This document shows, piece after piece, positions 22,894 to 55,404 of a stretch of DNA of 64,000 bases (positions are counted from its first letter, which is position 1; each line of letters starts with the position of its first letter). This DNA is from Bacteroidota bacterium (GTDB lineage Bacteria; Bacteroidota; Ignavibacteria; Palsa-1295): assembly GCA_030706745.1 (NCBI GenBank), contig JAUZNX010000002.1:186001-250000 (forward strand), in the 5' to 3' direction. A program made the position numbers and the translations under genes. The notes beneath the pieces were generated by a model. It did no database searches. It had not been told where the DNA came from and saw nothing but the letters and a program-made list of their open reading frames with translations.

Positions 22894-22908
22894 CGTAATA
22901 ATATTACG
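22894..22908. promoter_or_regulatory. CGTAAT-AAT-ATTACG palindrome (6-3-6 class), candidate operator
   Basis: Perfect 6-bp arms with a 3-bp spacer, between module 2 and module 1 of the MtrAB-like genes. Confidence 0.4.
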
Positions 22909-23072
22909 TCAGCCATTCGATGACGGCGAGCTTGGGCTGCGTTCCAATGAGAGGGTATTCCCAATCTTCTACTGAGTTGATCTCCATCGAAGCGGCAGAG
23001 ATGCAGGCTTGATGATTTCCTGAACATTGATCGCAGTAGATTGGCGCATCCAATTGCGACATTCAAAAACAG

Positions 23073-23100
23073 GAAGGGACGCCATTGCTGGCGTCCCTTC
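23073..23100 (-). terminator. Hairpin after MtrB-like gene 2
   Basis: GAAGGGACGCC (23073-23083) and complement (23090-23100) around a 6-base loop. Same stem as the terminator at 19034-19061. Confidence 0.75.
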
Positions 23101-23144
23101 ATTGGATTATTGGTATCGAAGCTTAGTCCGAGGCCAACGAGTCG

Positions 23145-25472: not shown

Positions 25473-25485
25473 AGTGAGTGTTCTC

Positions 25486-33515: not shown

Positions 33516-34112
33516 ATGATTGAAGAACGAACCGATATTGAAATGCTTGAGACAAAACCTGAACAAACTGTCGCCATACGCACCGATGATCATGATGGAC
33601 ATCGCGATCCCAGTCGTCGATCGTTCTTGCGGTGGTTCCTTGGGATCGGATCGGTCTCCGTCGCCGGAGTGCTCTCCGTTCCTCTGATTCGCTTCGCACT
33701 GGATCCGCTCATGCGGACGACGACACAAACCGACTGGAGTGATTTGGGGCCGGCATCCGACTTTGCGGAAGTGAACGTTCCACAGAAGCGGACGATCTCC
33801 ATTACCCAAATGGATGGCTGGCGAAAAGTGGTGATGGAAAAATCCATCTATGTCGTCAAAGGCAACGATGGTGTCCTAAGTGTATTTACGGCCACGTGCC
33901 CCCACTTAGGCTGCTCGGTGAAGTGGGTAGATACTAACAATCAATTCAAGTGCCCTTGCCATAACGGTGCATTCTCTCCGGAAGGCAAACTGATTTCCGG
34001 GCCACCGCCCCGTGATCTGGATACACTTGAGTCCCGCCTTGTCGATGGACATCTTCAAATTCGCTATCAGTCATTCCGTCAGCTCGTGAAGACGAAGGAA
34101 GTACTGGCCTAA
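33516..34112 (+). CDS. Rieske iron-sulfur subunit of a bc-type complex
   Basis: 198 residues. A Tat-like SRRSFLRWFLG (about 33-43) and membrane segment anchor it; the Rieske [2Fe-2S] motifs CPHLGC and CPCHNGAF are complete (about 125-155), followed by the SGPPPRDLD loop. It is the high-potential oxidant of quinol at the Qo site of the cytochrome bc complex. 22 bp before the cytochrome b gene. The N-terminal 30 residues are acidic and longer than usual. Confidence 0.93.
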   Translation: MIEERTDIEMLETKPEQTVAIRTDDHDGHRDPSRRSFLRWFLGIGSVSVAGVLSVPLIRFALDPLMRTTTQTDWSDLGPASDFAEVNVPQKRTISITQMDGWRKVVMEKSIYVVKGNDGVLSVFTATCPHLGCSVKWVDTNNQFKCPCHNGAFSPEGKLISGPPPRDLDTLESRLVDGHLQIRYQSFRQLVKTKEVLA

Positions 34113-34134
34113 CGCACGAAACTAATTACACGCA

Positions 34135-35607
34135 ATGACCATGAAACGCCATCACGAACATCATATCATCCATACTTCCGAGTGGGAACAGAGTCGCATC
34201 ATGCAGTGGCTCGACAAACGCACAGGCCTTATCCATTTGAAACGGGAAGCGCTCTATGAGCCGATCCCGGGAGGAGCGCGCTGGGCATATATATTCGGTT
34301 CGGGCCTTCTATACATTCTGTTCTCGCAAATTGTGACGGGTGTCTTCCTTGCCATGTATTATGTGGCGAGCGCAGATCATGCCCATACAACAATCGAGTA
34401 CATCACAAAACAGGTAACCGCCGGCTCTTTCATTCGAAGTCTCCATTCCTACGGTTCGAGTGCAATGGTGGTAACACTTGTCCTTCACATGGCGCAGACG
34501 TATTTCTTCGGTTCTTATAAAGGTCGAAGGGAAATTCTCTGGCTCTCTGGACTAATCCTGTTTGCGATGATAATTGGTATGGCCTTTACCGGCTACCTAT
34601 TGCCATGGGATCAGAAAGCATTTTTTGCCACAGCCGTCGGTACGAATATCGCTGGTGAAGTCCCTCTGATTGGAGATTGGCTCAAGAGCCTTATGCGTGG
34701 CGGCACCGAGATGGGAACACTGACACTGTCCCGATTCTTTGTCGCACATGTATTTCTGATACCGGCCTGTATCTTTGGATTTGTTGGTGCACACGTGTTT
34801 CTTTTCCGCAAGGCCGGAAGCGCGGGGCCAATCGATGAAGATCCAATCGACCCGAAGAAGCCGACAGAGCAATTCTATCCGAAGCAGGTGATTATGGATA
34901 TCGTCTTCGCGACGATACTGATCGGAACGCTGGGACTTCTTTCCTATTTTTCGCCGGTCGAACTTGGACCAAAGGCGAGTCCGGCAGACACTCAATTCTT
35001 GCCCAGGCCAGAGTGGTATTACTTGCCGATCTTCCAATGGTTGAAGTACTGGAGTGGACAGTCTGCCGTCATCGGTATTGTGATCATACCCGGTATTATC
35101 GCAGCACTTCTGGTCGCTTTGCCGTTCATTGATCGGCGCCCGGAACGTCGTCCATGGAAGCGTCCGATCGCGTCATTCTCGTTTGCGATCATTCTTTGCG
35201 GGCTAATCTTCCTGGGCTGGCAGAGTGGTCACGAGGATTCGACCGACCCTTCGGTGGCAAAGCAACTCGCGAAGCAAGAGCAGGAAACTGAAAAATTTAT
35301 GAAGGCAACATTTGAGCCTGAGACGATGGGACCGCCGCTGCTCATTGCCGCGCCGCTCAGCCCCGATGCCGCCAAAGGCAAAAAACTCTTTGCTGACAAC
35401 TCATGCGACGGCTGTCATGGCGATAATGGACAAGGAACTGAAAATGGACCGAAGCTCATTGGCGTCAGCCTAAAATTCGATCATGATGAGATGCTCAAGG
35501 TTCTCCGGAATCCAACGAAGAAGATGCGAGACGGGAATATGGATCCGGTCGAACTCGGCGATGATGACATGAACTTACTAATGGCCTATTTGAATAGCCT
35601 CAAGTAG
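34135..35607 (+). CDS. Cytochrome b fused to a C-terminal monoheme cytochrome c
   Basis: 490 residues. Cytochrome b (about 20-360) with heme-binding pairs H-X13-H (SLHSYG...LHM) and H-X14-H (VAHVF...AHVF); the X14 spacing is that of b6-type rather than mitochondrial-type b. The Qo motif appears as PRPEWYYLPIF. After the last membrane helix (about 350-368) a linker leads to a cytochrome c domain (about 405-490) with CDGCHGDNGQG. With the Rieske protein this forms a complete minimal bc complex whose cytochrome c subunit is fused to b. Inner membrane; oxidises menaquinol and feeds periplasmic cytochromes. Confidence 0.93.
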   Translation: MTMKRHHEHHIIHTSEWEQSRIMQWLDKRTGLIHLKREALYEPIPGGARWAYIFGSGLLYILFSQIVTGVFLAMYYVASADHAHTTIEYITKQVTAGSFIRSLHSYGSSAMVVTLVLHMAQTYFFGSYKGRREILWLSGLILFAMIIGMAFTGYLLPWDQKAFFATAVGTNIAGEVPLIGDWLKSLMRGGTEMGTLTLSRFFVAHVFLIPACIFGFVGAHVFLFRKAGSAGPIDEDPIDPKKPTEQFYPKQVIMDIVFATILIGTLGLLSYFSPVELGPKASPADTQFLPRPEWYYLPIFQWLKYWSGQSAVIGIVIIPGIIAALLVALPFIDRRPERRPWKRPIASFSFAIILCGLIFLGWQSGHEDSTDPSVAKQLAKQEQETEKFMKATFEPETMGPPLLIAAPLSPDAAKGKKLFADNSCDGCHGDNGQGTENGPKLIGVSLKFDHDEMLKVLRNPTKKMRDGNMDPVELGDDDMNLLMAYLNSLK

Positions 35608-35934: not shown

Positions 35935-37320
35935 ATGAAGACCATCATCGAACCATTCAAGATCAAGATGGTCGAGCAGTTGCGCTTTACCACACAGGAA
36001 GAGCGCGAGGAATTGCTAGTCGCGGCCCATTACAATCCGTTTCTACTCCGCTCCGACGATGTGCTGATCGATCTACTGACCGATAGCGGCACCACCGCCA
36101 TGAGTGCAAAACAGTGGTCCGCACTTATGGATGGCGATGAAGCCTATGCCGGCTCTCGGAGTTACTACAAGTTCGAGGATGCTGTCCGCGACATCACCGG
36201 GTTTACCCATATCATCCCAACGCATCAGGGCCGGGCAGCAGAAAAGATCATTTTTAGCCTGATTGGAGCTCCCGGAAAGATCATTCCGAATAATACGCAT
36301 TTTGATACTACGCGCGCAAATATTGAATCGTCAGGCGCGCGTGCCGTGGATTTGCCGAATCCGATTGGGCTGATTCCGGAAATTGTCGCTGATTTCAAAG
36401 GCGACATGAATACGGATGCACTGGAGGATTTGATCCGACAGGAAGGACCTGAGAATATTCCACTGGTGATGCTGACAATCACGAACAATACCGGCGGCGG
36501 ACAGCCCGTCTCCATGGCAAATATTAAAGCAGTCAGCAAGATCGCTCATGCAAATGGGATTCCCTTCTTTCTCGACGCATGCCGCTTTGCGGAAAATGCA
36601 ATGTTCATCAAGCAGCGGGAAGAGGGCTATGCGAATGTGCCGGTGAAGGCTATTGCGCAAGAGATGTTTTCGTACACTGATGGCTGTACGATGAGCGCGA
36701 AAAAGGATGGCCTCGTTAATACCGGCGGTTTTCTGGCAATGAACGATGGCGAATTAGCCATGCGCGCGCGCAACGTCCTGATCGTCACGGAAGGTTTTAC
36801 GACTTACGGCGGCCTTGCCCGAAGAGATTTGGAAGCAATCGCCCGTGGACTTGTCGAAGTCATGGACGAATCATATCTTGCCTATCGACTTCGATCCATC
36901 CAATACCTTGGCGATGCACTCGAGCTGAATAATGTGCCGATTGTTCGTCCAACCGGTGGACATGCGGTTTACATCGACGCCAAACGGTTCGCTCCTCACC
37001 TGCGCGCCGAGGACTACCCTGGCCAATCCATTGTCTGTGCGCTATATACCCATGCTGGAATTCGGTCCGTGGAGGTTGGCAGTGTTATGTTCGGAAAATA
37101 TGACCAAGATGGCCGCCTGATACCATCACCTATGGAGCTTGTTCGGCTGGCAATCCCAAGACGCGTATATACTCAGAGCCACATAGACTATGTTGCCGAG
37201 GCGGTTTGTGAAGTGTTTGAGGAGCGCGATAACCTCCCCGCCCTCCACATAACATACGAGGCACCGATCTTAAGACATTTCACTGCCCATTTTGAGCCGG
37301 TCCCTGTCTTAGTTAGTTAA
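35935..37320 (+). CDS. tnaA: Tryptophanase (beta-eliminating PLP lyase)
   Basis: 461 residues, the usual length. PLP-dependent fold type I lyase: DSGTTAMSAKQWSALMDGDEAYAG near the start, THQGRAAEKI, NNTGGGQPVS, the PLP Lys in SAKKDG, and TYGGLARRD. The C-terminal TYEAPILRHFTAHFEPV is typical of tryptophanase. It converts tryptophan to indole, pyruvate and ammonia. Tyrosine phenol-lyase shares this fold, but overall pattern favours tryptophanase. No TnaC-like leader was seen in the 97-bp gap. It is a metabolic gene isolated by terminators between respiratory operons. Confidence 0.85.
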   Translation: MKTIIEPFKIKMVEQLRFTTQEEREELLVAAHYNPFLLRSDDVLIDLLTDSGTTAMSAKQWSALMDGDEAYAGSRSYYKFEDAVRDITGFTHIIPTHQGRAAEKIIFSLIGAPGKIIPNNTHFDTTRANIESSGARAVDLPNPIGLIPEIVADFKGDMNTDALEDLIRQEGPENIPLVMLTITNNTGGGQPVSMANIKAVSKIAHANGIPFFLDACRFAENAMFIKQREEGYANVPVKAIAQEMFSYTDGCTMSAKKDGLVNTGGFLAMNDGELAMRARNVLIVTEGFTTYGGLARRDLEAIARGLVEVMDESYLAYRLRSIQYLGDALELNNVPIVRPTGGHAVYIDAKRFAPHLRAEDYPGQSIVCALYTHAGIRSVEVGSVMFGKYDQDGRLIPSPMELVRLAIPRRVYTQSHIDYVAEAVCEVFEERDNLPALHITYEAPILRHFTAHFEPVPVLVS

Positions 37321-37399: not shown

Positions 37400-37494
37400 A
37401 AGAATTTTAACGCTGGCATAATTGTCCTGTGGTCTAGTTGTTGTCGGAACATGCAAACCGATAATAAACATACAAGACCATGGAGGATAAAGAA

Positions 37495-38286
37495 ATGAAA
37501 GTGTTAAGTAATCGGCAAGAACCTCTCCTTTCGCGAGGCGACCTTGCATTTGCGCTAATAGTATGTCTGGCCACGAGTTTTGGCTTCTTGGCATTGCCCA
37601 AGGACCAGAAGACGCCAACGGCCAGCGGGTCGATCTCAGGTACCGTACGATTCTCTGGCCCGGCTCCAAAGCTGGCGCATGCGAAGACGACAGGTTTCGA
37701 TATTTGCGGTCAGTCGCACTCTTACGACCGCCTGATCGTCGGCAAAGGCAACGGAGTTGAGTATACCCTGGTCTACATTGCCAACCCCCCAGCTGGCAAG
37801 GCGAATTTCCCTGCACCGACAATAACACAACAGGGTTGTGGTTATACGCCGCATTTAACGGTCGCTTCGCGTGGGTCATCAGTTACGTTTGTCAACGAGG
37901 ATCCGGGACTTCACAATGTTCATGGATACTATATCAGTGGCTCCGAGCGCTCCACTTTGTTCAACTTCGCCCAACCTTCGCAAGGTCAAAAGTCCGCGCA
38001 GCAATTGCGGAAAGCCGGGATGGTCAATGTCGAGTGCGACGTGCACCCGTGGATGTCCTCGTGGATCTGGGTGACCGATAATCCCTACGTCGCAGTAACA
38101 AAAGCAGACGGATCCTATTCCATCGATGGACTTCCGCCTGGGACCTATACGGTCGTCATGTGGCATGAGGGCTGGAAAATGTCCACGCCAGAAGGCGGCC
38201 GCCCCGTCTTCTCGGGCAACGTCGTCGAACAACGCCAAATCACGGTTTCGGCTGGTACCGCTAACGCAGACTTTGAATTGAAATGA
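37495..38286 (+). CDS. Periplasmic cupredoxin-like protein with carboxypeptidase-regulatory-like domain
   Basis: 263 residues from ATG 37495, with GGAGG 8 bp upstream. N-terminal membrane or signal segment (about 17-33, ALIVCLATSFGFLAL). A type-1 copper-like set is visible: His in GLHNVHG, then Cys-His-Met in VECDVHPWMSSW (C-X2-H-X2-M). A C-terminal beta-sandwich (about 195-263: KADGSYSIDGLPPGTYTVVMWHEG) is of the carboxypeptidase regulatory type. Such blue-copper proteins carry electrons or bind copper. First gene of the NirK operon, overlapping the Cyc2-like gene by ATGA, so it is probably its periplasmic partner. Confidence 0.8.
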   Translation: MKVLSNRQEPLLSRGDLAFALIVCLATSFGFLALPKDQKTPTASGSISGTVRFSGPAPKLAHAKTTGFDICGQSHSYDRLIVGKGNGVEYTLVYIANPPAGKANFPAPTITQQGCGYTPHLTVASRGSSVTFVNEDPGLHNVHGYYISGSERSTLFNFAQPSQGQKSAQQLRKAGMVNVECDVHPWMSSWIWVTDNPYVAVTKADGSYSIDGLPPGTYTVVMWHEGWKMSTPEGGRPVFSGNVVEQRQITVSAGTANADFELK

Positions 38287-39554
38287 AGACGAGTAAAACC
38301 GTTGCAGTAAATTTCGCCGCGTTGACGGTCATCGCACTGATGGCCTTTGCGCCGCGCGCAGAAGCGATTCCGCTCTTCGCGCACAAATACAACACGACAT
38401 GTTTTACATGCCATACGACACCACCCGTTCTGAACGAATTCGGACGGCGCTTCCAGGCCAATGGCTACCAACTCCCAGGGACGATCGAGAAGATCGCCCT
38501 CTGGGATCAGCCCACATTCGCCTTCGGCGCGGTGGCGCAACCGATGGTCATTCAGTCAGAGGGATGGATCGGCGATAGTTCTACCGGCAAAAGCACGACG
38601 TTCAGCGGTATCGAGGTCGCACTGTTCAGTTCTGCTTCGCTTGGCGCACACCTATCCTATTTCGCGGCTGTGCCTGTCTCTATTGCGGACGGCAACACAT
38701 CAATCGAGATCGAAACAGCAAACCTGATGTATTCCGACTTGCTCAACGATGGCACCGGCTCCGTGAACCTTCGGCTTGGCAAATTCCGGTTCTTCGTTCC
38801 ATTTCCGGAGAACGTGATGCTCACCAATCCGGGCATCGATCCTCCCATTCTTGTTAATGGATACGATGCGTTCGATGGGAAGGACAATCTCGTGAAAGCG
38901 AACGATCTCGTTGCGACCGATCCGACCTTTGGCGCATCAGCCTTCGGGATGATTCCGGGAATTGCCGAGGGGCTTCGTTGGGAGGTCGGGATGACGGGCG
39001 GCAATAGCAGCGATATTGATCTGACCACCGCGAAGGCATACTTCGCATCGCTCGATCAGACCTTTTATGTCGACAACGCGCCGCTCCGAATCAGTGGATT
39101 CTATTATACCGGATCCCAGGGAATTACAGACTCGCTGGGTGTCGATTCGCTTTCAAATACCATCAGTGTCGGATGGACTAACCATACGGTACGAGGGGGT
39201 GTAGGCGTGGATTTCCTTGACCCGTTCGTGAAGCGGCTCGACTTTTTCGGTGAGTACATGGTCGGCAAAGACGACAACGTCGATACCGTCGGCGTCGTGC
39301 AGAATATGTCCGGCGGGTTTGCGGGTGTCAATGTAATCGTGCTGCCAGAGAAACTCTACGTCTATGGCCGATATGACTTCAGGACCGTCAAAGAAACGAG
39401 TGATGCCGTCAATCAAATTGACGTCGGCATCCAGTATCACTTGTTGCCAAACGTCTTCTTGACCGGCGTTTATTCCGTTAAGAACGAGACGATCCCGCAA
39501 TCACCCGATCAGAAAACAACGACTTTTGGCGCCGGTGTGCGCTTCGGATTCTAA
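38283..39554 (+). CDS. Cyc2-like fused monoheme cytochrome and outer-membrane porin (copy 2)
   Basis: 423 residues. Signal peptide about 1-28 (ending PRAEA), then IPLFAHKYNTTCFTCHTTPP and LNEFGRRFQANGYQLPG: one heme at C40-H44 in the Cyc2-type context, and about 370 residues of beta-strands ending VRFGF. Shares its N-terminal signature with the protein at 16889-18256, but barrels differ strongly. Embedded in the NirK operon between a cupredoxin and a diheme cytochrome c, which gives a possible chain outer membrane - cupredoxin/cytochrome - NirK. Iron oxidation is known for Cyc2 but the substrate here is unproven. Confidence 0.8.
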   Translation: MKTSKTVAVNFAALTVIALMAFAPRAEAIPLFAHKYNTTCFTCHTTPPVLNEFGRRFQANGYQLPGTIEKIALWDQPTFAFGAVAQPMVIQSEGWIGDSSTGKSTTFSGIEVALFSSASLGAHLSYFAAVPVSIADGNTSIEIETANLMYSDLLNDGTGSVNLRLGKFRFFVPFPENVMLTNPGIDPPILVNGYDAFDGKDNLVKANDLVATDPTFGASAFGMIPGIAEGLRWEVGMTGGNSSDIDLTTAKAYFASLDQTFYVDNAPLRISGFYYTGSQGITDSLGVDSLSNTISVGWTNHTVRGGVGVDFLDPFVKRLDFFGEYMVGKDDNVDTVGVVQNMSGGFAGVNVIVLPEKLYVYGRYDFRTVKETSDAVNQIDVGIQYHLLPNVFLTGVYSVKNETIPQSPDQKTTTFGAGVRFGF

Positions 39555-39569: not shown

Positions 39570-40415
39570 ATGTACATTCAAACACTAACAGTCGCCGCAG
39601 CGATAGGGCTGTCGAGTTTAGCAGTCTCCGTCCGCACAGTCACGCCGTCAGAGCCCGCGCCGGGTTCGAGGGTCTCGGCTCCCGAGCCACCAGCTTCGCA
39701 TGAAGTTCTTGCGCGCGGTAAGAAGATGTTTCTCATTTCTTGCTCGCCGTGTCACGGTGCTGATGGGACCGGCAATGGGCCGATCGCGTCCAATCTTCGA
39801 TACAAGCCGCGTGATTTTACGCGCGGTATCTATCTGAACCGCTCGACGGCAAGCGGCGAATTGCCGACCGATTATGATCTCTTTCGCACGATCACGACCG
39901 GTCTCCATAACACAGCAATGCCCTCGTTCCGGCAAATGGCACCGGGCGATCGTTGGGATATCGTGCAATACATCAAGACCTTCTCGCCACGATTCAATGA
40001 TTCGAGCGAATACCCGCTCGATGTCATCAATGTCGGGAGCGAGATTCTGCCAAGTCCGCAAAGTCTCGCACGTGGTAGAGAACTCTATCTCCAAATGCAG
40101 TGCACAAGCTGTCATGGCATTCGTGGTCAGGGCGATGGCCCGGCGTCATCTACGCTTTCCGATGATTTCAGAAATCAAATCTGGCCGACAGATCTGACCA
40201 ACGCATCTGAGTTCAAGTTTGGAAGAAGTGTACTCGATATCTTTCGAATCTTCTCGACCGGGCTCAATGGAACACCAATGCCGTCTTATGCGCAGACACT
40301 CTCCGATACCGACCGGTGGCATCTCGCGAATTACGTTTGGTCGCTCCAAAATACCGATCAGTATGTTGACGGTGTCGGTGCCGATAGCCTCGCCGGCTTG
40401 CACGGCCCGAGATAA
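39570..40415 (+). CDS. Periplasmic diheme cytochrome c
   Basis: 281 residues with two cytochrome c domains: CSPCHGADGTGNGP (about residue 57) and CTSCHGIRGQGDGP (about 176), each with a Met in an MPS-F/Y context (AMPSFRQM, PMPSYAQT). Signal or anchor at 1-20. AGGAGAG precedes the ATG. Resembles NirC/NosC-like diheme carriers. Lies between the Cyc2-like gene and nirK, so it is the likely electron donor to NirK. Confidence 0.9.
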   Translation: MYIQTLTVAAAIGLSSLAVSVRTVTPSEPAPGSRVSAPEPPASHEVLARGKKMFLISCSPCHGADGTGNGPIASNLRYKPRDFTRGIYLNRSTASGELPTDYDLFRTITTGLHNTAMPSFRQMAPGDRWDIVQYIKTFSPRFNDSSEYPLDVINVGSEILPSPQSLARGRELYLQMQCTSCHGIRGQGDGPASSTLSDDFRNQIWPTDLTNASEFKFGRSVLDIFRIFSTGLNGTPMPSYAQTLSDTDRWHLANYVWSLQNTDQYVDGVGADSLAGLHGPR

Positions 40416-40459
40416 GACGTCGTAGGGAAATTCAGTCGCAATCGCCTTTTCATTGTCTT

Positions 40460-40487
40460 CCGCCACGGTCCGATGGGACTGTGGCGG
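40460..40487 (+). promoter_or_regulatory. Hairpin immediately upstream of nirK
   Basis: CCGCCACGGTCC (40460-40471) and GGACTGTGGCGG (40476-40487) pair over 12 bp with one G-U wobble and a GATG loop, ending 10 bp before the nirK ATG. No T run, so it may affect mRNA stability or nirK translation within the operon rather than terminate it. Confidence 0.5.
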
Positions 40488-40497
40488 TTCAACTAAC

Positions 40498-41919
40498 ATG
40501 CTTACAAGAATTCAATATTATACCGTCGCAATTATCGTATTGCTGCTCGCCTCCTGCACGGGCAAGAAATCGGGCCTTCCAGAGTTGACCGGAGGCCAGC
40601 GCGAAGCCCAGCTAACCGACGCGCCGTTGGTCCCAAAGCGGGTCGAATCCAAGGGACCGCAAAAGGTTATCGTACATCTCGAAATTCGCGAAGTTGTTAA
40701 GCAAATCTCTGACGGGACTGCGTATACCTTTTGGACATTCGGTGGAAACGTGCCTGGAAAGTTCATTCGCGTAATGCAGGATGACTTAGTGGAATTCCAC
40801 TTGAGCAATCATCCCGGTAATAAACTTCCTCACAATATTGATTTGCATGCAGTCAATGGTCCCGGTGGTGGTGCGGAGGCTTCGCTCACTGCGCCAGGAC
40901 ATACATCCGTGTTTTCATTTCGTGCTCTGAATCCGGGACTGTACGTCTACCATTGCGCGACTGCTCCGGTTGGGATGCATATCGCGAATGGAATGTATGG
41001 GATGATTTTCGTGGAGTCCCGAGAACATCCGCTCCCGCCGGTCGATCATGAGTTTTACATGATGCAGGGCGAAATCTATACGACCGGGAAGTTCGGCGAT
41101 GCTGGTCTGCAGGCGTTCTCGATGCAAAATGCAATCGATGAAAAACCGACGTACGTTGTGTTCAATGGTTCGGTCGGATCGACATTGGGTCCAAAAGCGC
41201 TCAATGTGAAAGTCGGTGAGACTGTCCGTCTGTTCGTCGGAAATGCCGGTCCAAATCTATCGTCGTCTTTTCATGTGATCGGTGAAATTTTCGACAACGT
41301 CTACCCCGAGGGTGGAAGCGAAATCATCAATCATAACGTGCAAACGACGGTGATTCCTCCGGGTGGCGCAGCCATTGTCGAGTTCAAAGTCAATGTTCCA
41401 GGGGTCTACCACATGGTCGATCATGCGATCTTCCGTGCCTTCAATCAGGGTGCACTTGCGGATATCAACGTGACCGGGCGTGATGACTCAAGCATCTATT
41501 CCCACAAGCAGCGAGATGAGGTATACATGCTGGAGGGCGGTAATATTCAGAGTCTTGAAACATCCCCACCGGTTGAAATGAAGGAACGGCCAATGGCCGA
41601 GCGCATGCAGATCGGCGAGCAAATATTCACCACGAACTGCGCCGCATGTCATCAGCTCACGGGTCAGGGTTTGCCTGGTGTATTCCCACCGTTGGCAGGC
41701 TCTGACTTCCTCAAGAATCGTCCGGATAAAGGTGTAAACATCGTTATGCACGGCTTGCAGGAGCCGATCACCGTACGCGGAATGCAATTCAACGGAGTCA
41801 TGCCGATCTGGTCGTTCAATGAAGATCAGGTAGCAAGTGTATTGACCTACGTCCGCAACTCATGGGGCAATAATTTCGGACCGGTCTCGCTGAGTGAAGT
41901 TCGCAAGCTAAAGAAGTGA
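40498..41919 (+). CDS. nirK: Copper nitrite reductase with C-terminal cytochrome c domain
   Basis: 473 residues from ATG 40498. The N-terminus is a lipoprotein signal (VLLLASCTG). Two cupredoxin domains (about 60-370): type-1 Cu ligands H in HNIDLH, C in YHCATAP, H in MHIANG and M in NGMYG; type-2 ligands the second His of HNIDLH, the His before that Cys and His in VDHAIFRAF. A C-terminal cytochrome c domain (about 385-473) has CAACHQLTGQGLPGVFPPL. It reduces nitrite to NO in the periplasm, taking electrons through its own heme. Cytochrome-fused NirK is known. The upstream frame begins with TTG without signal character and was not used. Confidence 0.95.
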   Translation: MLTRIQYYTVAIIVLLLASCTGKKSGLPELTGGQREAQLTDAPLVPKRVESKGPQKVIVHLEIREVVKQISDGTAYTFWTFGGNVPGKFIRVMQDDLVEFHLSNHPGNKLPHNIDLHAVNGPGGGAEASLTAPGHTSVFSFRALNPGLYVYHCATAPVGMHIANGMYGMIFVESREHPLPPVDHEFYMMQGEIYTTGKFGDAGLQAFSMQNAIDEKPTYVVFNGSVGSTLGPKALNVKVGETVRLFVGNAGPNLSSSFHVIGEIFDNVYPEGGSEIINHNVQTTVIPPGGAAIVEFKVNVPGVYHMVDHAIFRAFNQGALADINVTGRDDSSIYSHKQRDEVYMLEGGNIQSLETSPPVEMKERPMAERMQIGEQIFTTNCAACHQLTGQGLPGVFPPLAGSDFLKNRPDKGVNIVMHGLQEPITVRGMQFNGVMPIWSFNEDQVASVLTYVRNSWGNNFGPVSLSEVRKLKK

Positions 41920-41926
41920 AGACGCC

Positions 41927-42736
41927 ATGATTGCCATTCATCGGCTCGCGTTATCCTTCCTGCTGCTCGCGGCATTGAGCGTTTCGTGTGTACCGGGCTT
42001 CTCAAAAGTTCGGCCCGCTCAGTCACGGGCTGTCGAGTCGAGCAGGGGAATGGTACGGATACCCTCCGGCTATTATAAGCCGTTCTATATCACGAAGGGA
42101 ATCGATTCGGTTTTTATTCATTCCTTTTTGATGGATGCGACACCGGTGACGAATAAGGAATTCCTCGACTTCGTGAAGTCGAATACTTCATGGACACGAT
42201 CGAGAGTCTCATCCTTGCTGGCTGAATCCGGTTATTTGAAGCACTGGAAGGGAGATTTTGATATTGGCGACAAGTCGCTGGAAGGCGTGCCAGTTGTTAA
42301 TGTCTCCTGGTTCGCGGCAAGTGCTTACGCTCGATGGCGGCATAAGCGACTTCCCACAATCTCCGAGTGGGAATATGCATCCCTCGCTCCGATTGTAAGC
42401 CCGCGCCACTCCACAGGCAAAGCGAAGAATGACCTAATTCTGGCATGGTATGGCAGCCCAAATGCATCACGATTGCATCCGGCAGGAACGGTGAATAAGA
42501 ATGCATACGGCGTCTGCGATATGTTCGGACAGGTTTGGGATTGGGTGGAAGACTTTAGCAGCGTCATAATTCCACCCGATCCACGTGGTGGTTTGGACTT
42601 GCGCTCCTTTTGTGGCGCAGGCGCTGCTGGGACGATCGACCCATCGGACTACGCGACCTTCATGCGGTTTGCAATGCGGAACAGCCTTAAGGCTAACTAC
42701 TGCGTTGAAAATCTTGGCTTTCGATGTGTACAATGA
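41927..42736 (+). CDS. nirV: NirV: formylglycine-generating-enzyme-like lipoprotein
   Basis: 269 residues; lipoprotein signal (LAALSVSCVPG). FGE/SUMF1-like fold: MVRIPSGYYKPFYITKG, DATPVTNKEFLDFV, PVVNVSWFAASAYARWRHKRLPT and EWEYAS, FGQVWDWVEDF, and a C-terminal NLGFRC. nirV genes of this family follow nirK in many denitrifiers, with unsettled function (possible cofactor or maturation role). The FGE catalytic Cys pair is not clearly present (single Cys in SFCGAG), so sulfatase-type activity is unlikely. 7 bp after nirK; its stop overlaps the SCO start. Confidence 0.85.
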   Translation: MIAIHRLALSFLLLAALSVSCVPGFSKVRPAQSRAVESSRGMVRIPSGYYKPFYITKGIDSVFIHSFLMDATPVTNKEFLDFVKSNTSWTRSRVSSLLAESGYLKHWKGDFDIGDKSLEGVPVVNVSWFAASAYARWRHKRLPTISEWEYASLAPIVSPRHSTGKAKNDLILAWYGSPNASRLHPAGTVNKNAYGVCDMFGQVWDWVEDFSSVIIPPDPRGGLDLRSFCGAGAAGTIDPSDYATFMRFAMRNSLKANYCVENLGFRCVQ

Positions 42737-43350
42737 AAAAAACAAAGGCGGTTGGCGGTCTCGTTATCGCCGTATTGGCAGCTCAGATCATGATCTCGTG
42801 CGGTCCTCATAAATTGGGGCTGGCCGATATTGGCAATGGAGATAGCTTAAAACGAGCTCACGCAAATCAAGGATCGATATACTCTATCAATGTTACACTC
42901 CAGAACCAGGATGCTCGGACCATCCCATGGCAATCCTTGAGTGGCAAGGTGCAGGTGATGGCCATGATTTTCACGCATTGTCAGGCATCCTGCCCCATGA
43001 TCACGAATGAAATCAAGGACGCAGAGGCGCTCATTCCTGAATCGATGAGGGACCGGGTCGGCTTTACGCTAATTTCTTTCGATTCGAAGCGCGATACGGC
43101 TGCTCGCTTGAAGGAACATTACACGGCGATGCACCTTGATTCCCTTTGGCAATTACTTCACGGTAATCCAGCTGATATTCAGACGATCGCGAACCTGCTC
43201 GATGTAAAATTCAAAGAGGTTGCGGAAGGTAATTTTTCACACTCGAACGTGATCGTTGTGGTTGATGAGAAAGGTCATATCATCTTGCGCGAAGAAGGGA
43301 TTGAAAAGCACTCTGCGGAGATCGCTCGCACCGCTCAATTTCTATTATGA
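42733..43350 (+). CDS. SCO1/SenC-family copper chaperone lipoprotein
   Basis: 205 residues from ATG 42733 (overlapping the nirV stop); ATG 42724 is an alternative. Lipoprotein signal (QIMISCGPH). Thioredoxin-like fold with copper-binding CXXXC (THCQASCPM) and the conserved His in NFSHSNVIVVVD. SCO proteins deliver copper to CuA or T1/T2 sites. In this operon the client may be NirK, or the CuA of NosZ encoded next. Last gene of the NirK operon, followed by a short GCCAGCA-G-TGCTGGC dyad (43375-43389). Confidence 0.9.
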   Translation: MKKTKAVGGLVIAVLAAQIMISCGPHKLGLADIGNGDSLKRAHANQGSIYSINVTLQNQDARTIPWQSLSGKVQVMAMIFTHCQASCPMITNEIKDAEALIPESMRDRVGFTLISFDSKRDTAARLKEHYTAMHLDSLWQLLHGNPADIQTIANLLDVKFKEVAEGNFSHSNVIVVVDEKGHIILREEGIEKHSAEIARTAQFLL

Positions 43351-43434: not shown

Positions 43435-43595
43435 GAATAATCGGAATTTCGTGTCCGATATTTGAAATCGGACTAAAATAGACGGGTATTCAGGATGGCA
43501 TGACAATCCACTATGCAAGGTAGGCCAGGCAAACGGACATTTGCGTAGCATTAGGCAAAACCGTGGGCGGCCATCACACCATAGCACACATTCCA

Positions 43596-45635
43596 ATGCA
43601 CAATACCGTACTACCGAAGAGAAAGATTCTACCCGTAACGATGGGTGAGCGGTCATCCACAGCGGCTCTATCGCTTCTGGCGATGCTCGTTCTCTTGCCA
43701 ATTATTATTTCAGGTTGCCAGAAATCTGGTGGTCCGAGCCTGCAGTCCATCGCCTCTGCCCGCGGTCTCTCGCCAGCGGATATGGAGAGCGCGATCCGTA
43801 CGTTTGTGCCACCGGGCAAGAAAGATGACTATTACATTTTTGCTTCCGGCGGTCATTCAGGCCAGGTCCACGTGATTGGCGTTCCGTCAATGCGTTTGCT
43901 CAAAACGATCCCTGTCTTTTCTCAGGATTCCTGGTCGGGCTATGGTCTTGGCACGACAGAATCGGAATCCCTTTTCAAAGAAGGCAGCGCAGGTGAAGAT
44001 GTGGAGCTTCGCTGGGGCGATTCGCATCATCCTGCGTTAAGTGAAACTGATGGCGATTATGATGGCAAATGGTTGTACATCAACGACCGGGCGAATGGGC
44101 GGGTGGCCATGATCGATCTCCGTGATTTTGCGACGAAGCAGATTCTGAAAATCCCGAATATTGAGACCTGCCACGGAGGCGTTTTTGTTACGCCGAATTC
44201 GGAATATGCTTACGTTTCGGCGATGGTCCCAAAGGCGTATGCCTTCTCCGAAACGCAAAAGGGCGTCACGCTCGACGATCATCTCAATCATTACAAAGAC
44301 ATCTATCGCGGAGTCGCCAGCTTCCTGAAGATTAAGAAAGACGACGGTCATCTCGATCTCGCGCAGAGCTTTCAGATCGAATTGCCACCCTATGGTCAGG
44401 ATATATCCGATGCGGGAAAAGGTGTAAGTGACGGTTTTGTCTTCACCAATTCCTATAACACGGAAATGGCAACAGGAGGTACAAAACAGGGACGTCCAAC
44501 AATCGAAGTCGGTGCTTCTGCCAACGATTTCGATTACCTCCACGTCATCGACTGGAAGAAGGCCGAACAGTTGGTCGCAGCCGGCAAAGCCGAAGTACAC
44601 AATGGTGTGCGGGTGCTACCGTTGCAAACTGCGATCGACAATGGCGTACTCTATTTCGTACCCGAACCCCGCAGTCCTCATGGAGTCGATGTTTCACCAG
44701 ATGGCAACTACCTTGTCGTCGCCGGTAAGCTCGATCCGCACGTGACGATCTTCAGTATGGAGTTGATCAAGAAGGCAATCGCTACGAAGAACTTCGAGAA
44801 GCACGATGCGTGGGGAGTGCCTGTGCTTAATTACAAGGCGTGCGTCGCGGGGCAGGTCGAAGTCGGCGCGGGTCCGCTGCACACGCAGTTCGATGGCAAC
44901 GGCAACGCCTATACAAGCCTCTTCCTCGAAAATGCCGTCGCGAAATGGACGCTTGGGACGCCGTATCATCCCGCAGATAAGGCGTGGAAGCTCGTGGACA
45001 AGATCACGATTCACTATAATATCGGGCATCTCACAATGCCCTGCGGCGATACGCGGCACCCGGAAGGGAAGTACATTATCGCAATGGATAAGTGGTCGAT
45101 TGACCGGTATGGCCCGGTGGGGCCGCTGCTTCCACAGAATTTCCAATTGATCGACATTTCAGGGGACAAAATGAAATTGCTGAGCGACATGCCGATCGGA
45201 TTCGCCGAGCCGCATTATGCTCAAACGATTCCAGTGAGCCGGTTGCATCCGATCCAGACCTATGCACTGGGGACGGATCCACTAACGATGAAGCTCTCGC
45301 CGAATGCACTCAAGAACGCCAAAGATGCACGCATTGAGCGGCATGGCAATGTCGTCGATGTATACATGAGTGTGATTCGGAGTTCGTTCTCGCCGGATAT
45401 TGTCGAAGTGCATAAAGGGGATCTGGTCCGATTTCATATTACCAACATCGAGCAGACTTTGGATGCTACACATGGGTTTGCGGTGCCGGAGTATAACATC
45501 AGCGCAAGCTTGGAACCTGGAGCAACTGTCGATGTCGAATTCAATGCGATTCGGCCGGGATCTTTCAGCTATTACTGCACCGAGTTCTGCTCGGCGCTCC
45601 ATCTGGAGATGCAGGGCTGGCTGCTGGTCAACTGA
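43596..45635 (+). CDS. nosZ: Nitrous oxide reductase, clade II (Sec-type)
   Basis: About 679 residues from ATG 43596; GTG 43563 and ATG 43641 are alternatives, with no clear Shine-Dalgarno for any. The export signal is Sec or lipoprotein-like (MLVLLPIIISGCQKS) with no twin arginine, as in clade II NosZ. The beta-propeller carries CuZ ligands (WGDSHHPALSETDGDYDG, ETCHGG, SPHGVD, GPLHTQFD, AEPHYAQ). The C-terminal CuA domain has C-X3-C-X3-H-X2-M (YYCTEFCSALHLEM). Reduces N2O to N2 in the periplasm. First gene of the nos operon. Confidence 0.97.
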   Translation: MHNTVLPKRKILPVTMGERSSTAALSLLAMLVLLPIIISGCQKSGGPSLQSIASARGLSPADMESAIRTFVPPGKKDDYYIFASGGHSGQVHVIGVPSMRLLKTIPVFSQDSWSGYGLGTTESESLFKEGSAGEDVELRWGDSHHPALSETDGDYDGKWLYINDRANGRVAMIDLRDFATKQILKIPNIETCHGGVFVTPNSEYAYVSAMVPKAYAFSETQKGVTLDDHLNHYKDIYRGVASFLKIKKDDGHLDLAQSFQIELPPYGQDISDAGKGVSDGFVFTNSYNTEMATGGTKQGRPTIEVGASANDFDYLHVIDWKKAEQLVAAGKAEVHNGVRVLPLQTAIDNGVLYFVPEPRSPHGVDVSPDGNYLVVAGKLDPHVTIFSMELIKKAIATKNFEKHDAWGVPVLNYKACVAGQVEVGAGPLHTQFDGNGNAYTSLFLENAVAKWTLGTPYHPADKAWKLVDKITIHYNIGHLTMPCGDTRHPEGKYIIAMDKWSIDRYGPVGPLLPQNFQLIDISGDKMKLLSDMPIGFAEPHYAQTIPVSRLHPIQTYALGTDPLTMKLSPNALKNAKDARIERHGNVVDVYMSVIRSSFSPDIVEVHKGDLVRFHITNIEQTLDATHGFAVPEYNISASLEPGATVDVEFNAIRPGSFSYYCTEFCSALHLEMQGWLLVN

Positions 45636-45661: not shown

Positions 45662-46150
45662 ATGAGTAACGAGCGGGCTGCATTGCACAAGACGTTTCGA
45701 GCGATGGGCATCCGACTACTCATTACTAGTTCCTTGTTACTCGCTGCATTTGTCATGGGCTGTGCGGGTGGGACCGCCACGCCGCCAGAACTGGTAGCGG
45801 ACCGGTCCTCGTGCCACAAGTGTCAAATGCTTATCAGTGATACACGATATGCCGCAGCCATCAATGATGGTGAGATAAGAACATTTGATGACATCGGATG
45901 CATGCTAAGTGCGATTACGAGTATGAAGCAAGAGCCGGCAAATGTTTGGGTGCGAGACTTTAACAAGAATACCTGGCTGGATGCACGCAAAGCGAGCTAT
46001 GTCTTCGCGGCGAAGCTCGGGACACCAATGAACTACGGATTTGTAGCAGTTGTAAGTCGCACCGAAGCACAATCTCTTGCGACCAGAGTCGCTGGTCAGC
46101 CGATTGACAGTTGGGGTCAGCTACGACAACAGTTTAAGGAAAGACGCTAA
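45662..46150 (+). CDS. nosL: NosL copper chaperone lipoprotein
   Basis: 162 residues; lipoprotein signal (LLLAAFVMGCAGG). The metal-binding motif CHKCQMLI is the C-X2-C-X-M motif of NosL; ETRTFDD-type IRTFDDIGCML follows. NosL carries Cu(I) to the CuZ site of NosZ together with NosDFY. The start region lies in a GTAAC-rich direct repeat, and AGTAATGAGTA (45658-45668), which includes the ATG, is complementary to 45717-45727. Overlaps nosD (TAATG). Confidence 0.92.
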   Translation: MSNERAALHKTFRAMGIRLLITSSLLLAAFVMGCAGGTATPPELVADRSSCHKCQMLISDTRYAAAINDGEIRTFDDIGCMLSAITSMKQEPANVWVRDFNKNTWLDARKASYVFAAKLGTPMNYGFVAVVSRTEAQSLATRVAGQPIDSWGQLRQQFKERR

Positions 46151-48180
46151 TGGAATGGTTTAAGGAATATCATCGCAAGACGCGCGCGCAATGGATTGGA
46201 GCAGCTCTCCTGCTATTATTAATTGCCGCTCTCTCGCTCATTGGCGAGCGATCGCCACTCTGGGTCATGCATCTCGAGTCGCATAATTATCCGCAAGGAC
46301 TTGAATTGCGCGCATATGGCGATCGGGTCGAGGGTGATGTGAATGAAATCAATACGTTGAATCAATACATCGGAATGAAAGACCTTGATCCTCAGGAGAT
46401 CAAGGCGATGTTCTTGTGTCCGTATGCGGTTGGAGCAATTGTTTTCCTGGCCGCTCTTGCGTTCGTCCTTCCTCGATTCCGATGGTTATTCTCAGTGCTT
46501 GCCATGACCATTCCTCTCGGGATTCTTGTGGTGATCCAGTATTACCTCTATTCATTCGGACACTCGCTGGACCCTCATGCACCGCTGCGCATGCCCGCGT
46601 TCACCCCTCACGTAATTGGACCGACGACCGTCTGGAATTTCAAGACAGTGGCGCTTCCGGGTTCCGGTTTTTGGCTGCTCGCAGCGGCCTCGTTGTTGAT
46701 CGGCTTTGGAAATCGGCTTGCACGGAGCCTTGTCCATGGGGTCAATCCATTTCGCAAACGTGGGCTTGCATTTCCTATCATTGCAGCGATCACGATTATG
46801 TCGCTGTCACAACTGAACGCGCAGTCCATTTCACATGATCGGTCGGTGGCTTCGGTCGGCGAACTCCAATCAACGATTGATGCAGCAGCCCCCGGTTCGA
46901 CAATCACGGTTCCACCGGGTATTTATCGAGGGCCGATCACAATCGTCAAACCACTCACTCTGATTGGCAATGGAATGCCCGAAATTCGCGGCGATGGTCA
47001 GGGGACTGTTGTTACGATCGCTTCAAACGATGTGACCTTCAAAGGCTTTCGCGTAAGTTTGAGTGGAAAAGAAGTGTCCCAGGACGCCGCTGGCATTTTG
47101 ACGAAGGGTAGCAATATCATAGTGCGCTCAAGCGAGGTCTTGGATGTCTATTTCGGCGTTCATGTTACAAGCGGCAACAATATTCTGATAGCGGATAATG
47201 AGATTCATCCTGGACAGTTGTATGGCGACCGGCCAGGACATGCGATCAACGTTTGGAATGTGGAAGACATCACTATCCGCGGCAATTATCTTCACGATGC
47301 GCGGGACGGTGTGATACTGACCTATGTGGCGAAAGCGATCGTCGATTCGAACCAAGTGACGAACTGCCGGTATGGTCTGCACTCGATGTATTCGAAGAAC
47401 CTCGCATTCACACGCAATTACGTCCACGATAATCTGTTGGGGGTCGCTCTGATGTATACCGACACGATGCTCGCGGAAGGGAACCTGGTCACGAGTCATA
47501 AAACCGGAGCAACTCCATTTGGTTTTTTGCTCAAGGACCTGAATAATCTCGTGATGCGACACAATACGATTACATGTAATCGTGTTGGCATTTATGCCGA
47601 TGGAATTTCAATGCAATTGGGCAGTGCATCGAGGATCTCGGAGAACACGATCGCCGGTAACGAGCGCGGACTCTCCGCGATGAGCAACTCATCCTTCGAT
47701 TTCGTTGCCAATAACGTGATTGACAATTTGACTGATGTCTATAATGAAGGTGAGCGCACCTCGCCAACCGTTCATTGGTCCGATGCTCAAAGTGGAAACT
47801 TCTGGAGCGAGTATCATGGATTCGATCGGAATGGCGATGGCATTGGCGATCTTGCCTATCACGAAGAAAATCTTACGGAATCGGTTCTTAATACGTCGAA
47901 CCCAGCCCGTGCGTTTATTTATACGCCGGCGCACCTGGTCCTCGATGCCGTACTAAAGATGTTTCCCCTATTCAAGAGCGATCCTGTAGTGAGCGATGGA
48001 CTGCCGCTCATGGAGGCCAGGATGCTTCCGTGGAGTTCAGGAGTCGGCATCGAGCATTCCCGAAATGAGTTTATTTCGCGGTTGATTGTCTCACTTGTGG
48101 CTTCGCTGGTGATTGGCCTTGCGCTCTGGTTACTATGGAAATGGCGTCCCTTTCATTCATTCTCATACAAAGCCTCATGA
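46150..48180 (+). CDS. nosD: NosD with an N-terminal polytopic membrane domain (fusion)
   Basis: 676 residues. The N-terminal 220 residues are not NosD: four membrane segments (about 14-33, 92-108, 112-134, 172-188) with a periplasmic loop reading LESHNYPQGLELRAYGDRVEG and EINTLNQYIGMKD. Then comes a signal-like segment (FPIIAAITIMSLSQLNAQ) and a right-handed beta-helix NosD domain (about 235-600) rich in repeats such as NNILIADNEIHPG, plus a C-terminal membrane helix (about 645-668). NosD binds NosL and, with NosFY, powers copper loading of NosZ. The fusion anchors NosD to the membrane at both ends. A clade II NosB-like role for the N-terminal domain is possible but unverified. Confidence 0.85.
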   Translation: MEWFKEYHRKTRAQWIGAALLLLLIAALSLIGERSPLWVMHLESHNYPQGLELRAYGDRVEGDVNEINTLNQYIGMKDLDPQEIKAMFLCPYAVGAIVFLAALAFVLPRFRWLFSVLAMTIPLGILVVIQYYLYSFGHSLDPHAPLRMPAFTPHVIGPTTVWNFKTVALPGSGFWLLAAASLLIGFGNRLARSLVHGVNPFRKRGLAFPIIAAITIMSLSQLNAQSISHDRSVASVGELQSTIDAAAPGSTITVPPGIYRGPITIVKPLTLIGNGMPEIRGDGQGTVVTIASNDVTFKGFRVSLSGKEVSQDAAGILTKGSNIIVRSSEVLDVYFGVHVTSGNNILIADNEIHPGQLYGDRPGHAINVWNVEDITIRGNYLHDARDGVILTYVAKAIVDSNQVTNCRYGLHSMYSKNLAFTRNYVHDNLLGVALMYTDTMLAEGNLVTSHKTGATPFGFLLKDLNNLVMRHNTITCNRVGIYADGISMQLGSASRISENTIAGNERGLSAMSNSSFDFVANNVIDNLTDVYNEGERTSPTVHWSDAQSGNFWSEYHGFDRNGDGIGDLAYHEENLTESVLNTSNPARAFIYTPAHLVLDAVLKMFPLFKSDPVVSDGLPLMEARMLPWSSGVGIEHSRNEFISRLIVSLVASLVIGLALWLLWKWRPFHSFSYKAS

Positions 48181-48845
48181 TCCAAATCAAAGAGCTTTAT
48201 AAGTACTTCGGCAGCCTGAAAGTCCTGACAGGATTGGACGCATCCATTTCCGCAGGTGAACTCGTTGTTTTGCTGGGGCCGAATGGCTGCGGCAAGTCGA
48301 CGCTGTTCCGGTGCCTGCTGGGTCTGACAGACTATGAAGGAATGATCCAGGTCAATGGACTATCTCCAATCGAGCGCGGTAAGGAAGTGCGCAAACGCGT
48401 CGGTTACATGCCTCAGCAATGCGGCCTTCATCTGGATATTTCAGTCGAAGAGACCTTAGAGTTCTACGCCTTACTTCGTCAATCCGATGCATCGCTTGCG
48501 TTCAGACTCCTCGAGCGTGTCTCGCTTGCTGGAAAGCGCCATATGAAGGTTGGAGAATTATCGGGAGGTATGAAGCAACGGCTGGCCTACGTGGTGTCGG
48601 CATTTTCGAAACCAAACGTGCTTTTGCTGGATGAACCAATCGCAAATCTCGATCGCGACAGTCAGTCGCTCATTCTATCGCATCTCCTGGAACTCCGCGA
48701 GCAGAAAACCACTATTCTCCTTTCGACTCACCAGAAACATGGAATGCTCGATGTGGCTGATCGCTCGTTAGTCTTGGCGGAAGGTCGGCTCTGGGATACC
48801 GAAGTCGTCACGGAATATGGCATGGAAGGAGCGATTCCCCAATGA
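48177..48845 (+). CDS. nosF: NosF ABC-transporter ATPase
   Basis: 222 residues from ATG 48177 overlapping the nosD stop. Walker A GPNGCGKST, Q-loop MPQQCG, signature LSGGMKQR, Walker B VLLLDEPIANLD and H-loop STHQ are all present. It is the cytoplasmic ATPase of the NosDFY complex. The upstream in-frame extension lies within nosD and is not used. Start of nosY overlaps the stop by 4 bp. Confidence 0.95.
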   Translation: MIQIKELYKYFGSLKVLTGLDASISAGELVVLLGPNGCGKSTLFRCLLGLTDYEGMIQVNGLSPIERGKEVRKRVGYMPQQCGLHLDISVEETLEFYALLRQSDASLAFRLLERVSLAGKRHMKVGELSGGMKQRLAYVVSAFSKPNVLLLDEPIANLDRDSQSLILSHLLELREQKTTILLSTHQKHGMLDVADRSLVLAEGRLWDTEVVTEYGMEGAIPQ

Positions 48846-50230
48846 TCGGATTTGCCAGGATAGTTGATTCGATTCGTCCGCCAGTTTCTACGATCAGCAT
48901 TGCGCTGAAGGAGTTGAACGATGCGCGACGGAACCGTTGGCTGATCGGGTATGCGCTGGTGCTGGCATTACTCGGGATCGTGATCGCGATCATGGGTAGT
49001 TCCAGTACGAGCGGACTTGCATTGCAGATGTTTGGCCGCACGACAGCGACATTTGTCAATCTCTGCCTTTTTGTCGCCCCACTCGTCGCGATTACTTTGG
49101 GAGCTGGTGCGATCGCCGGGGAGCGTGATATGGGAACTCTGGAGCATCTTCTTGCGCAGCCGATCGAACGATCGGAATTGCTCCTCGGAAAATTTTCCGG
49201 GCTGTGGTGCGCGATGGCAATTGCGACACTGGCGGGTTTCGCGCCAGCGGGAATCATAATCGGTTCGTTGACCGGTGTCGGAAGTTTTCTCCATTTCCTT
49301 CTGTTCCCAATGCTCGCGCTGCTAGTAGCCAGCGCCATGCTTGCCGTTGGCCTGTACATTTCTGTGCGCGCAAAGGGCCGCGCCGAAGCGCAGACGACGT
49401 CGATTCTTCTTTGGTTCGTTTTCGTTCTCGCGTATGACTTGCTGCTAATGGGAAGCCTTTCGGTCGTGCGTCTTCCGGCGGGAACGCTGGGATTTCTGCT
49501 ATTCGCAAATCCCATCGATGCGGCCAGGACGCTCACGATTCTTGCGCTGGACCCTGAACTCTATGTTCTTGGTCCGGCAGGGGCGTACCTCACGCAGACG
49601 CTTGGCGTGGGCACAACCGCCATCATGCTTGTGATGAGCCTGTTTGTTTGGACAGGGATTCCGTTATTTCTCAGTGTGAAACGTTTTAGTATCGCCAGCC
49701 CAGGCACTCGCAAGAGGAGCGTGGGCGGCACCATTAACCATCCAGTAAAGAACCGTATGAAATCTGTTAGATCGTCTGTCGTCAGCGGCGCCATCGGTGC
49801 CGCGGCCTTCGCTATCTTTGTCTCGCTCGCATCATGTGGCGGGGGAAGCGATAAGCTCAATCAGGACCAGGGAGCCGCTACCACTACCACCACCCCGGCA
49901 CCGGCCGGTGAAACGGCGGTTACAATCGATAGGTCGCCTGAGCACATCGCGCTAGGCAAAGCAACTTACCACACCACCTGCGCGCCATGTCACGGCGAAG
50001 GTGGCAAGGGAGACGGGCCTGCCGCTGCAGCGCTTAATCCGAAGCCCCGCGATCACACGAACGGAGCGTACATGGACAAGCTGACCAATGCGCACATCTT
50101 CCAGGTGGTCAAACAAGGCGGTGCGGCATTTGGATACCCCACTATGCCAGCACAGCCTCAAATGGCGGATGACACGATCAAGAATGTCATCGCATTTGTG
50201 CGCTCATTGAGCTCGACATACAAGCAGTAA
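48842..50230 (+). CDS. nosY: NosY permease fused to a C-terminal monoheme cytochrome c
   Basis: 462 residues. NosY part (about 1-285) has six hydrophobic segments and AGAIAGERDMGTLEHLLAQP, typical of NosY. With no stop codon it continues through a lipoprotein-like leader (MKSVRSSV from residue 306, hydrophobic stretch, FVSLASCGGG) into a Thr/Pro linker and a cytochrome c domain (about 370-462, CAPCHGEGGKGDGP, likely Met in PTMPAQP). An internal ATG at 49757 could also yield a free cytochrome lipoprotein. Fusion to a heme domain is unusual for NosY. In separate-gene nos clusters, small cytochromes (NosC) sit nearby, so this may be a tethered electron donor to NosZ. Confidence 0.85.
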   Translation: MIGFARIVDSIRPPVSTISIALKELNDARRNRWLIGYALVLALLGIVIAIMGSSSTSGLALQMFGRTTATFVNLCLFVAPLVAITLGAGAIAGERDMGTLEHLLAQPIERSELLLGKFSGLWCAMAIATLAGFAPAGIIIGSLTGVGSFLHFLLFPMLALLVASAMLAVGLYISVRAKGRAEAQTTSILLWFVFVLAYDLLLMGSLSVVRLPAGTLGFLLFANPIDAARTLTILALDPELYVLGPAGAYLTQTLGVGTTAIMLVMSLFVWTGIPLFLSVKRFSIASPGTRKRSVGGTINHPVKNRMKSVRSSVVSGAIGAAAFAIFVSLASCGGGSDKLNQDQGAATTTTTPAPAGETAVTIDRSPEHIALGKATYHTTCAPCHGEGGKGDGPAAAALNPKPRDHTNGAYMDKLTNAHIFQVVKQGGAAFGYPTMPAQPQMADDTIKNVIAFVRSLSSTYKQ

Positions 50231-52960: not shown

Positions 52961-53154
52961 ACATAGTAATCCTGCTGGTGCTATCAAGCGTCCTCGCTGC
53001 CTCCGTATTTCTCGTTGCATTCCTATGGGCCAATGCCAACGGGCAATACGACGATCTTCACACACCCGCAATAAGAATTCTATTTGACGATCAACCATCT
53101 GTGGTTGACCGCACACCCACCGATATCCATTCAATTACCACTCATGGCACTTGA
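52957..53154 (+). CDS. ccoS: CcoS, cbb3 oxidase assembly protein
   Basis: 65 residues, with one membrane helix (about 4-26) and the CcoS signature FLWANANGQYDDLHTPAIRILFDD. CcoS is needed for cofactor insertion in cbb3 oxidase. Overlaps ccoI by 4 bp and ccoNO by 11 bp. Confidence 0.93.
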   Translation: MNIVILLVLSSVLAASVFLVAFLWANANGQYDDLHTPAIRILFDDQPSVVDRTPTDIHSITTHGT

Positions 53155-55390: not shown

Positions 55391-55404
55391 AAAGCGGAGT
55401 AGCA

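Follow-up and report, generated by a model that had tools for sequence, protein, structure and literature searches.

A Cyc2-like cytochrome-porin encoded beside nirK in a Bacteroidota genome is tied to a diheme cytochrome c and probably belongs to an electron-input module with exchangeable terminal reductases

Our analysis of a 64,000-nucleotide stretch of Bacteroidota DNA (the window) shows that the reading frame at 38283-39554 (+ strand) encodes a Cyc2-like protein of the outer membrane in which a monoheme cytochrome is fused to a porin barrel, that genes of its clade are invariably followed by a gene for a diheme cytochrome c, and that the terminal reductases encoded nearby differ from genome to genome. 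This combination of a constant Cyc2-diheme pair with differing terminal reductases points to a portable module for electron input among deep-branching Bacteroidota. With a probability of roughly 60%, we read the set as a Cyc2-type module that feeds the periplasmic carrier pool and is joined to different terminal reductases, in the manner of the rus operon. The conserved pair also names the diheme cytochrome as the partner protein.

The reading frame is real and complete, as originally predicted, and codes for 423 residues; its assignment draws on the frame itself, the heme motif, a tree and a predicted structure. We applied the Cyc2 criteria of PMC8406198, namely the motif AXPXFAR[Q/K][T/Y], a single CXXCH, a PXL motif, a length of at least 365 residues, which this protein exceeds, and a barrel of the OprO/OprP type. 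By motif count there is a single CxxCH, at residue 40, behind a Sec-type signal peptide whose cleavage site, read by eye, lies near the junction of AEA and IPLF. The CxxCH is invariant in 17 of 17 clade members of our alignment (A1) and is also present in the other clade members read, and it is shortly followed by the PXL motif P48-V-L50, whose P48 and L50 are invariant in the same alignment. The protein reads AIPLFAHKY, with His for Arg, and because it misses the first motif by this one residue we file it as Cyc2-like and not as Cyc2. The substitution is common to loci L053 and L054, the remaining motif positions fit, and most of the clade carries Arg at this position, so that the clade as a whole agrees with the motif.

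An AlphaFold2 model built with 48 homologues (mean pLDDT 86, pTM 0.81) predicts a barrel similar to OprO/OprP (VIA Z about 26, 3.0 A over 306-308 residues), which on structure comparison also matches the porin Omp32. This model replaced an earlier one from 17 sequences, with a pLDDT of 70 and a poor heme domain. His123 of the barrel was considered as a distal heme ligand and rejected: it is invariant in the first 17 sequences, but is Arg in L063, L066 and L068. No Pfam or NCBIfam model matches the protein, a PDB sequence search with the barrel profile returned chance matches only, and a plasmid search gave one weak N-terminal match, in Methylocystis. Some match to the protein, often N-terminal only, is found in 49 of 100 relatives. 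To our knowledge, the organisms that carry homologues in this wider group are not known to oxidise iron, and the function of Cyc2 homologues outside the known iron oxidisers is uncertain. There is good support for the 38283 protein as an electron-transfer protein of the Cyc2-like type that has redox partners in the periplasm.

The window holds another Cyc2-like protein of 455 residues (16889-18256, + strand), and the original prediction held that the two copies share the same heme signature and yet are not recent duplicates. The second half of this claim stands. Pairwise comparison limits the similarity to the N-terminal third (29% over 164 residues), and the phylogeny of both proteins that had been called for, a tree of 49 sequences, places the 38283 protein in a clade of 20 members and the 16889 protein in a separate clade of 5, each supported at 100/100. 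The signatures, on the other hand, are not quite the same, with PAFARKY in the 16889 protein and PLFAHKY in the 38283 protein. Matches in Chlorobiaceae were considered as cluster-1 Cyc2 references, were not taken as proven members of that cluster and were left out. Genes of the 16889 clade lie near Rieske/cytochrome b genes in four relatives. In a third Cyc2-like clade, a cytochrome with 4-5 CxxCH motifs is encoded directly upstream in eight of the nine loci read (L020, L022, L024, L029, L052, L098, L101 and L102, the exception being L028); L022 and L052 represent one place in a single genome, which leaves 7 distinct genomes for the eight loci. Since the third clade pairs with a multiheme cytochrome and the 16889 clade lies near Rieske/cytochrome b genes, partnering with periplasmic cytochromes recurs across the superfamily. 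Directly upstream of 16889, genes at 13391-16848 encode a 4Fe-4S protein, an NrfD-like membrane protein, a 210-residue protein and a cytochrome c, possibly a quinone-interacting complex.

The predicted order of a blue-copper protein, the Cyc2-like protein, a diheme cytochrome c and NirK is borne out by reading frames, domains and spacing, all on the + strand. The first of these genes (37480-38286) encodes a type-1 copper protein (cupredoxin) of 268 residues with a C-terminal carboxypeptidase-regulatory-like domain by Pfam/NCBIfam; its residues His145, His148, Cys186, His189 and Met192 do not vary among 14 homologues. It overlaps the Cyc2-like frame by 4 bp, the diheme gene (39570-40415, 281 residues, two CxxCH) follows after 15 bp, and nirK (40453-41919) after a further 37 bp. 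The product of the last passes the curated model TIGR02376 with 334.1 bits against a cut-off of 296.3, and it carries a fused cytochrome c domain (Cytochrom_C, residues 387-471) at its C-terminus. Downstream lie genes for a lipoprotein with an FGE-sulfatase domain (41927-42736, PF03781), a SCO1/SenC copper chaperone (42724-43350, PF02630), a Sec-dependent (clade II) nitrous oxide reductase NosZ (43563-45635, TIGR04246, 789 bits against a cut-off of 625) and, by Pfam, NosL, NosD and an ABC ATPase in the NosF position (45662-48845). Next comes a frame in which a NosY-like permease continues into a lipoprotein cytochrome c (48842-50230, Pfam), and the cbb3 oxidase genes for a FixI-like P-type ATPase, CcoNO, CcoP and a FixG-like protein occupy 50426-57696, as assigned by Pfam and synteny.

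The frame at 48842-50230 may be a true fusion or may give two proteins. Its residues 328-462, approximately, are 59-72% identical to the stand-alone cytochromes of L053, L055, L056, L057 and L058, and in relatives this cytochrome has a gene of its own that directly follows the diheme gene. The cytochrome part retains its own Met and a lipobox-like sequence. Upstream of the module, a Rieske protein and a cytochrome b-cytochrome c fusion (33516-35607, + strand, Pfam) make up a quinol-oxidising bc complex at a distance of 2-5 kb, a position conserved in Kapabacteria (L053, L055, L057 and L058). A tryptophanase-like gene (35935-37320) separates the bc complex from the cupredoxin gene and is conserved at this place in L053 and L058. 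Judging from gene spacing, the genes around 38283 would form an operon. Neither FNR/NnrR-like boxes (TTGATNNNNATCAA, 2 mismatches; 46 found, 41.6 expected) nor promoter-like sites (8 found, 8.4 expected) are enriched, and Rfam has no match in the window. Terminator-like sites number 12, with 8.2 expected; those on the + strand fall before the tryptophanase gene or inside genes, and we therefore draw no operon boundary from them.

We collected 24 distinct loci of the 38283 clade from Kapabacteria, Kryptonia and Ignavibacteria. Flanks were read up to about 10 kb and are in part cut by contig ends, so that a neighbour missing from a short locus is weak evidence. The diheme gene lies immediately downstream of the Cyc2-like gene in all 24 loci, which are not independent since several come from one genus, and the two genes are in obligate genetic linkage. 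Both CxxCH motifs of the diheme protein are invariant in 17 sequences. The cupredoxin gene precedes the Cyc2-like gene in 16 of the loci, where all three genes stand together. A second such set, 47-56% identical to that of the window, is present on contig 14 of the host genome (L033). The named homologues come from metagenome-assembled genomes labelled Kapaibacterium, Ignavibacteriae, Kryptonia or Bacteroidetes, and suggested sites include soil, permafrost and groundwater, among others. In the open-access part of the literature that we searched, no description of the order cupredoxin-Cyc2-diheme-nirK was found.

The terminal reductases beside the module are exchangeable between genomes. L042 has a run of cytochrome c, SCO1, COX1, COX3, COX2, UbiA, cytochrome c, cupredoxin, Cyc2-like and diheme genes, in which aa3 genes are joined to the module. 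Two Kryptonia loci (L048 and L070) have COX2 and COX1, then one more gene, before the Cyc2-like gene, and a third (L071) has COX1 at the contig edge followed by the module. In L053 and L056 the module is followed by genes for a monoheme cytochrome and a P-type ATPase and by cbb3 genes. Several loci (e.g. L033 and L060-L064) showed no terminal reductase within the flank read. The cbb3 genes of the window lie 13.5 kb downstream of the module, beyond the nirK-nos block: compared with L053 and L056, the window has nirK, FGE, SCO1, nosZ, nosL, nosD, ABC ATPase and nosY genes between the diheme gene and the monoheme cytochrome, the latter here sharing one frame with the NosY-like permease. This arrangement suggests that the nirK-nos block was inserted into a Cyc2-cbb3 region in this lineage, the direction of change being likewise only suggested by the gene orders.

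The link to nirK is far looser than that to the diheme cytochrome. The original prediction pointed to a conserved order cupredoxin-Cyc2-diheme-nirK in related genomes, and its cytochrome and cupredoxin parts recur as described above, but nirK is adjacent in only two of the 24 loci, the window and L057 (genome G004, same genus). These two share the order cupredoxin-Cyc2-diheme-(monoheme c)-nirK-FGE-SCO1 with 53-79% identity. The FGE-sulfatase domain gene comes right after nirK in both genomes with a nirK-linked module (41927-42736 here and 13816-14625 in L057). Among the 100 relatives, 15 genomes bear the module; seven have a nirK match and eight have none, and in five of the seven nirK is on another contig. 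In the 20 kb read around the second host module, nirK was not found. Homologues that lacked the heme, or that stood without nirK and without cytochromes, would have spoken against the original prediction; in fact heme and cytochrome are kept and nirK is mostly absent.

The host genome (3.8 Mb, an estimated 99.5% complete) has nirK, a clade II nosZ and two heme-copper oxidase genes (PF00115), one of which is the CcoNO of the window; it is doubtful whether a nitric oxide reductase accompanies nirK and nosZ. Neither narG nor a RuBisCO large subunit gene was found in it. Nitrite would therefore come from outside or from another reductase, and Calvin-cycle lithoautotrophy is unlikely.

The diheme cytochrome of the window is a full-length homologue of chain B of PDB entry 6H5L (218 residues, phmmer E 1.3e-53, profile E 2.7e-70), which the PDB labels 'conserved hypothetical cytochrome protein'. 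We take 6H5L to be the complex that Kustc0457 forms with Kustc0458 in Kuenenia (Dietl et al. 2019) and its diheme chain, presumably, to be the partner of a nitrite-reducing anammox enzyme. This homology makes an electron-delivery role of the window protein likely, without implying NirK as the recipient.

In the mechanism that we favour, the single N-terminal heme of the cytochrome-porin would accept electrons from a donor located at the cell surface or inside the pore and hand them on to the periplasmic diheme cytochrome of the neighbouring gene; the type-1 copper protein would serve as an additional carrier. A high-potential periplasmic carrier pool would receive these electrons, and any terminal reductase could draw on it: in this genome NirK, which has a cytochrome c fused to it, NosZ and the cbb3 oxidase, and in relatives aa3-type or other heme-copper oxidases. 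Dissolved Fe(II) is the foremost donor candidate, on the analogy of characterised Cyc2 proteins, whose role is that of Fe(II) oxidases (PMC8406198); the same paper warns that distant homologues may serve other functions. We infer the direction of electron flow, the donor, the order of carriers and the place of NirK as one sink among several. Against an electron-input module speak the commonness of homologues in organisms of the wider group that are not known to oxidise iron, the unlikely Calvin-cycle lithoautotrophy, the loci without a reductase and the His for Arg.

What the original prediction had suggested, a direct wiring of an outer-membrane donor to nitrite reduction, stands in so far as an electron-transfer protein with heme and a constant periplasmic partner is concerned, and is not supported in its specificity for NirK. 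A route reserved for NirK, bringing it electrons from an extracellular donor so that nitrite is reduced without the quinone pool, would account for the gene order shared by the window and L057, for the cytochrome c domain that NirK itself carries and for the kinship of the diheme protein with the 6H5L chain; we regard it as unlikely in view of the rarity of adjacent nirK, its absence from eight module-bearing genomes and its location on another contig in most of the rest, the second module of the same genome without nirK, the oxidases at other loci and the lack of a narG match in the host. The bc complex upstream in the same operon region also counts against it and would supply the same periplasmic carriers as the module; a bypass of the quinone pool is possible. 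That a Cyc2-type input module was recruited to denitrification here, with extracellular electrons passing through the cytochrome-porin and diheme cytochrome to NirK and NosZ and bypassing the quinone pool, is a tentative proposal that we find doubtful. If the module does feed NirK and NosZ, soil and peat bacteria would have an extracellular electron donor coupled directly to the formation of NO and the removal of N2O.

The recurrent neighbours of the module are copper enzymes and chaperones (NirK, NosZ, COX1/COX2, cbb3, SCO1 and P-type ATPase), as would be expected if porin and heme imported or reduced copper for copper enzymes and the cupredoxin delivered it. There is, however, little likelihood of this: some modules (L033, L060-L064) have no copper enzyme in their flanks, the partner conserved best is not a copper protein but a diheme cytochrome, and in another Cyc2-like clade a multiheme cytochrome takes the partner's place. 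In the interval from one Cyc2-like gene of the window to the other, the - strand at 19107-26490 carries genes for two decaheme cytochromes with 10 CxxCH apiece; behind each lies a gene for a probable outer-membrane barrel of 781-831 residues, which makes two MtrAB/MtoAB-like pairs. Alongside these, the 38283 protein could send respiratory electrons outward to an extracellular acceptor, which we judge very improbable because linkage to high-potential terminal reductases (oxidases, NirK, NosZ) suits input better, as does the Fe(II) oxidase activity of characterised Cyc2 proteins.

The input module that we prefer resembles several known systems. Like Cyc2PV-1 of Mariprofundus, Cyc2 of Acidithiobacillus and Cyt572 of Leptospirillum, the window protein combines a signal peptide, a length over 365 residues and a short N-terminal monoheme domain (PxFA..[TY]...CxxCH....PxL) with a porin barrel, and an OprO/OprP-type porin fold is reported for the Mariprofundus Cyc2 (PMC8406198). 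Unlike them, it belongs to a Bacteroidota lineage with a clade of its own, has His for Arg and is a candidate iron oxidase by analogy. The Bradyrhizobium Cyc2 cluster with HiPIP and periplasmic cytochromes (PMC5566968) likewise sets a Cyc2 gene among periplasmic carriers, but the carriers and the phylum are others and no nitrite reductase is described. In anammox bacteria the octaheme protein Kustc0458, a candidate nitrite:NO reductase, has the diheme cytochrome Kustc0457 as its redox partner (PMC6423088, PMC8388095). The window diheme protein is homologous over ~218 residues to 6H5L chain B, which we take to belong to this complex; in contrast to that pair, no octaheme HAO-like gene lies beside the window gene, whose constant neighbour is the Cyc2-like porin. 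The rus operon of Acidithiobacillus (PMC10654088), ordered cyc2-cyc1-cup-coxBACD-rus, shares with our module the grouping of a Cyc2-type gene with genes for a diheme cytochrome and a cupredoxin, and the junction with terminal oxidase genes, which is clearest in L042. Our module differs from it in its order (cupredoxin-Cyc2-diheme), in a terminal reductase that varies and can be NirK plus NosZ, in a diheme cytochrome whose best PDB match is 6H5L chain B, and in a cupredoxin with a carboxypeptidase-regulatory domain, whose profile matched copper nitrite reductase and amicyanin weakly in the PDB and, for this one cupredoxin at E up to 0.1, did not match rusticyanin.
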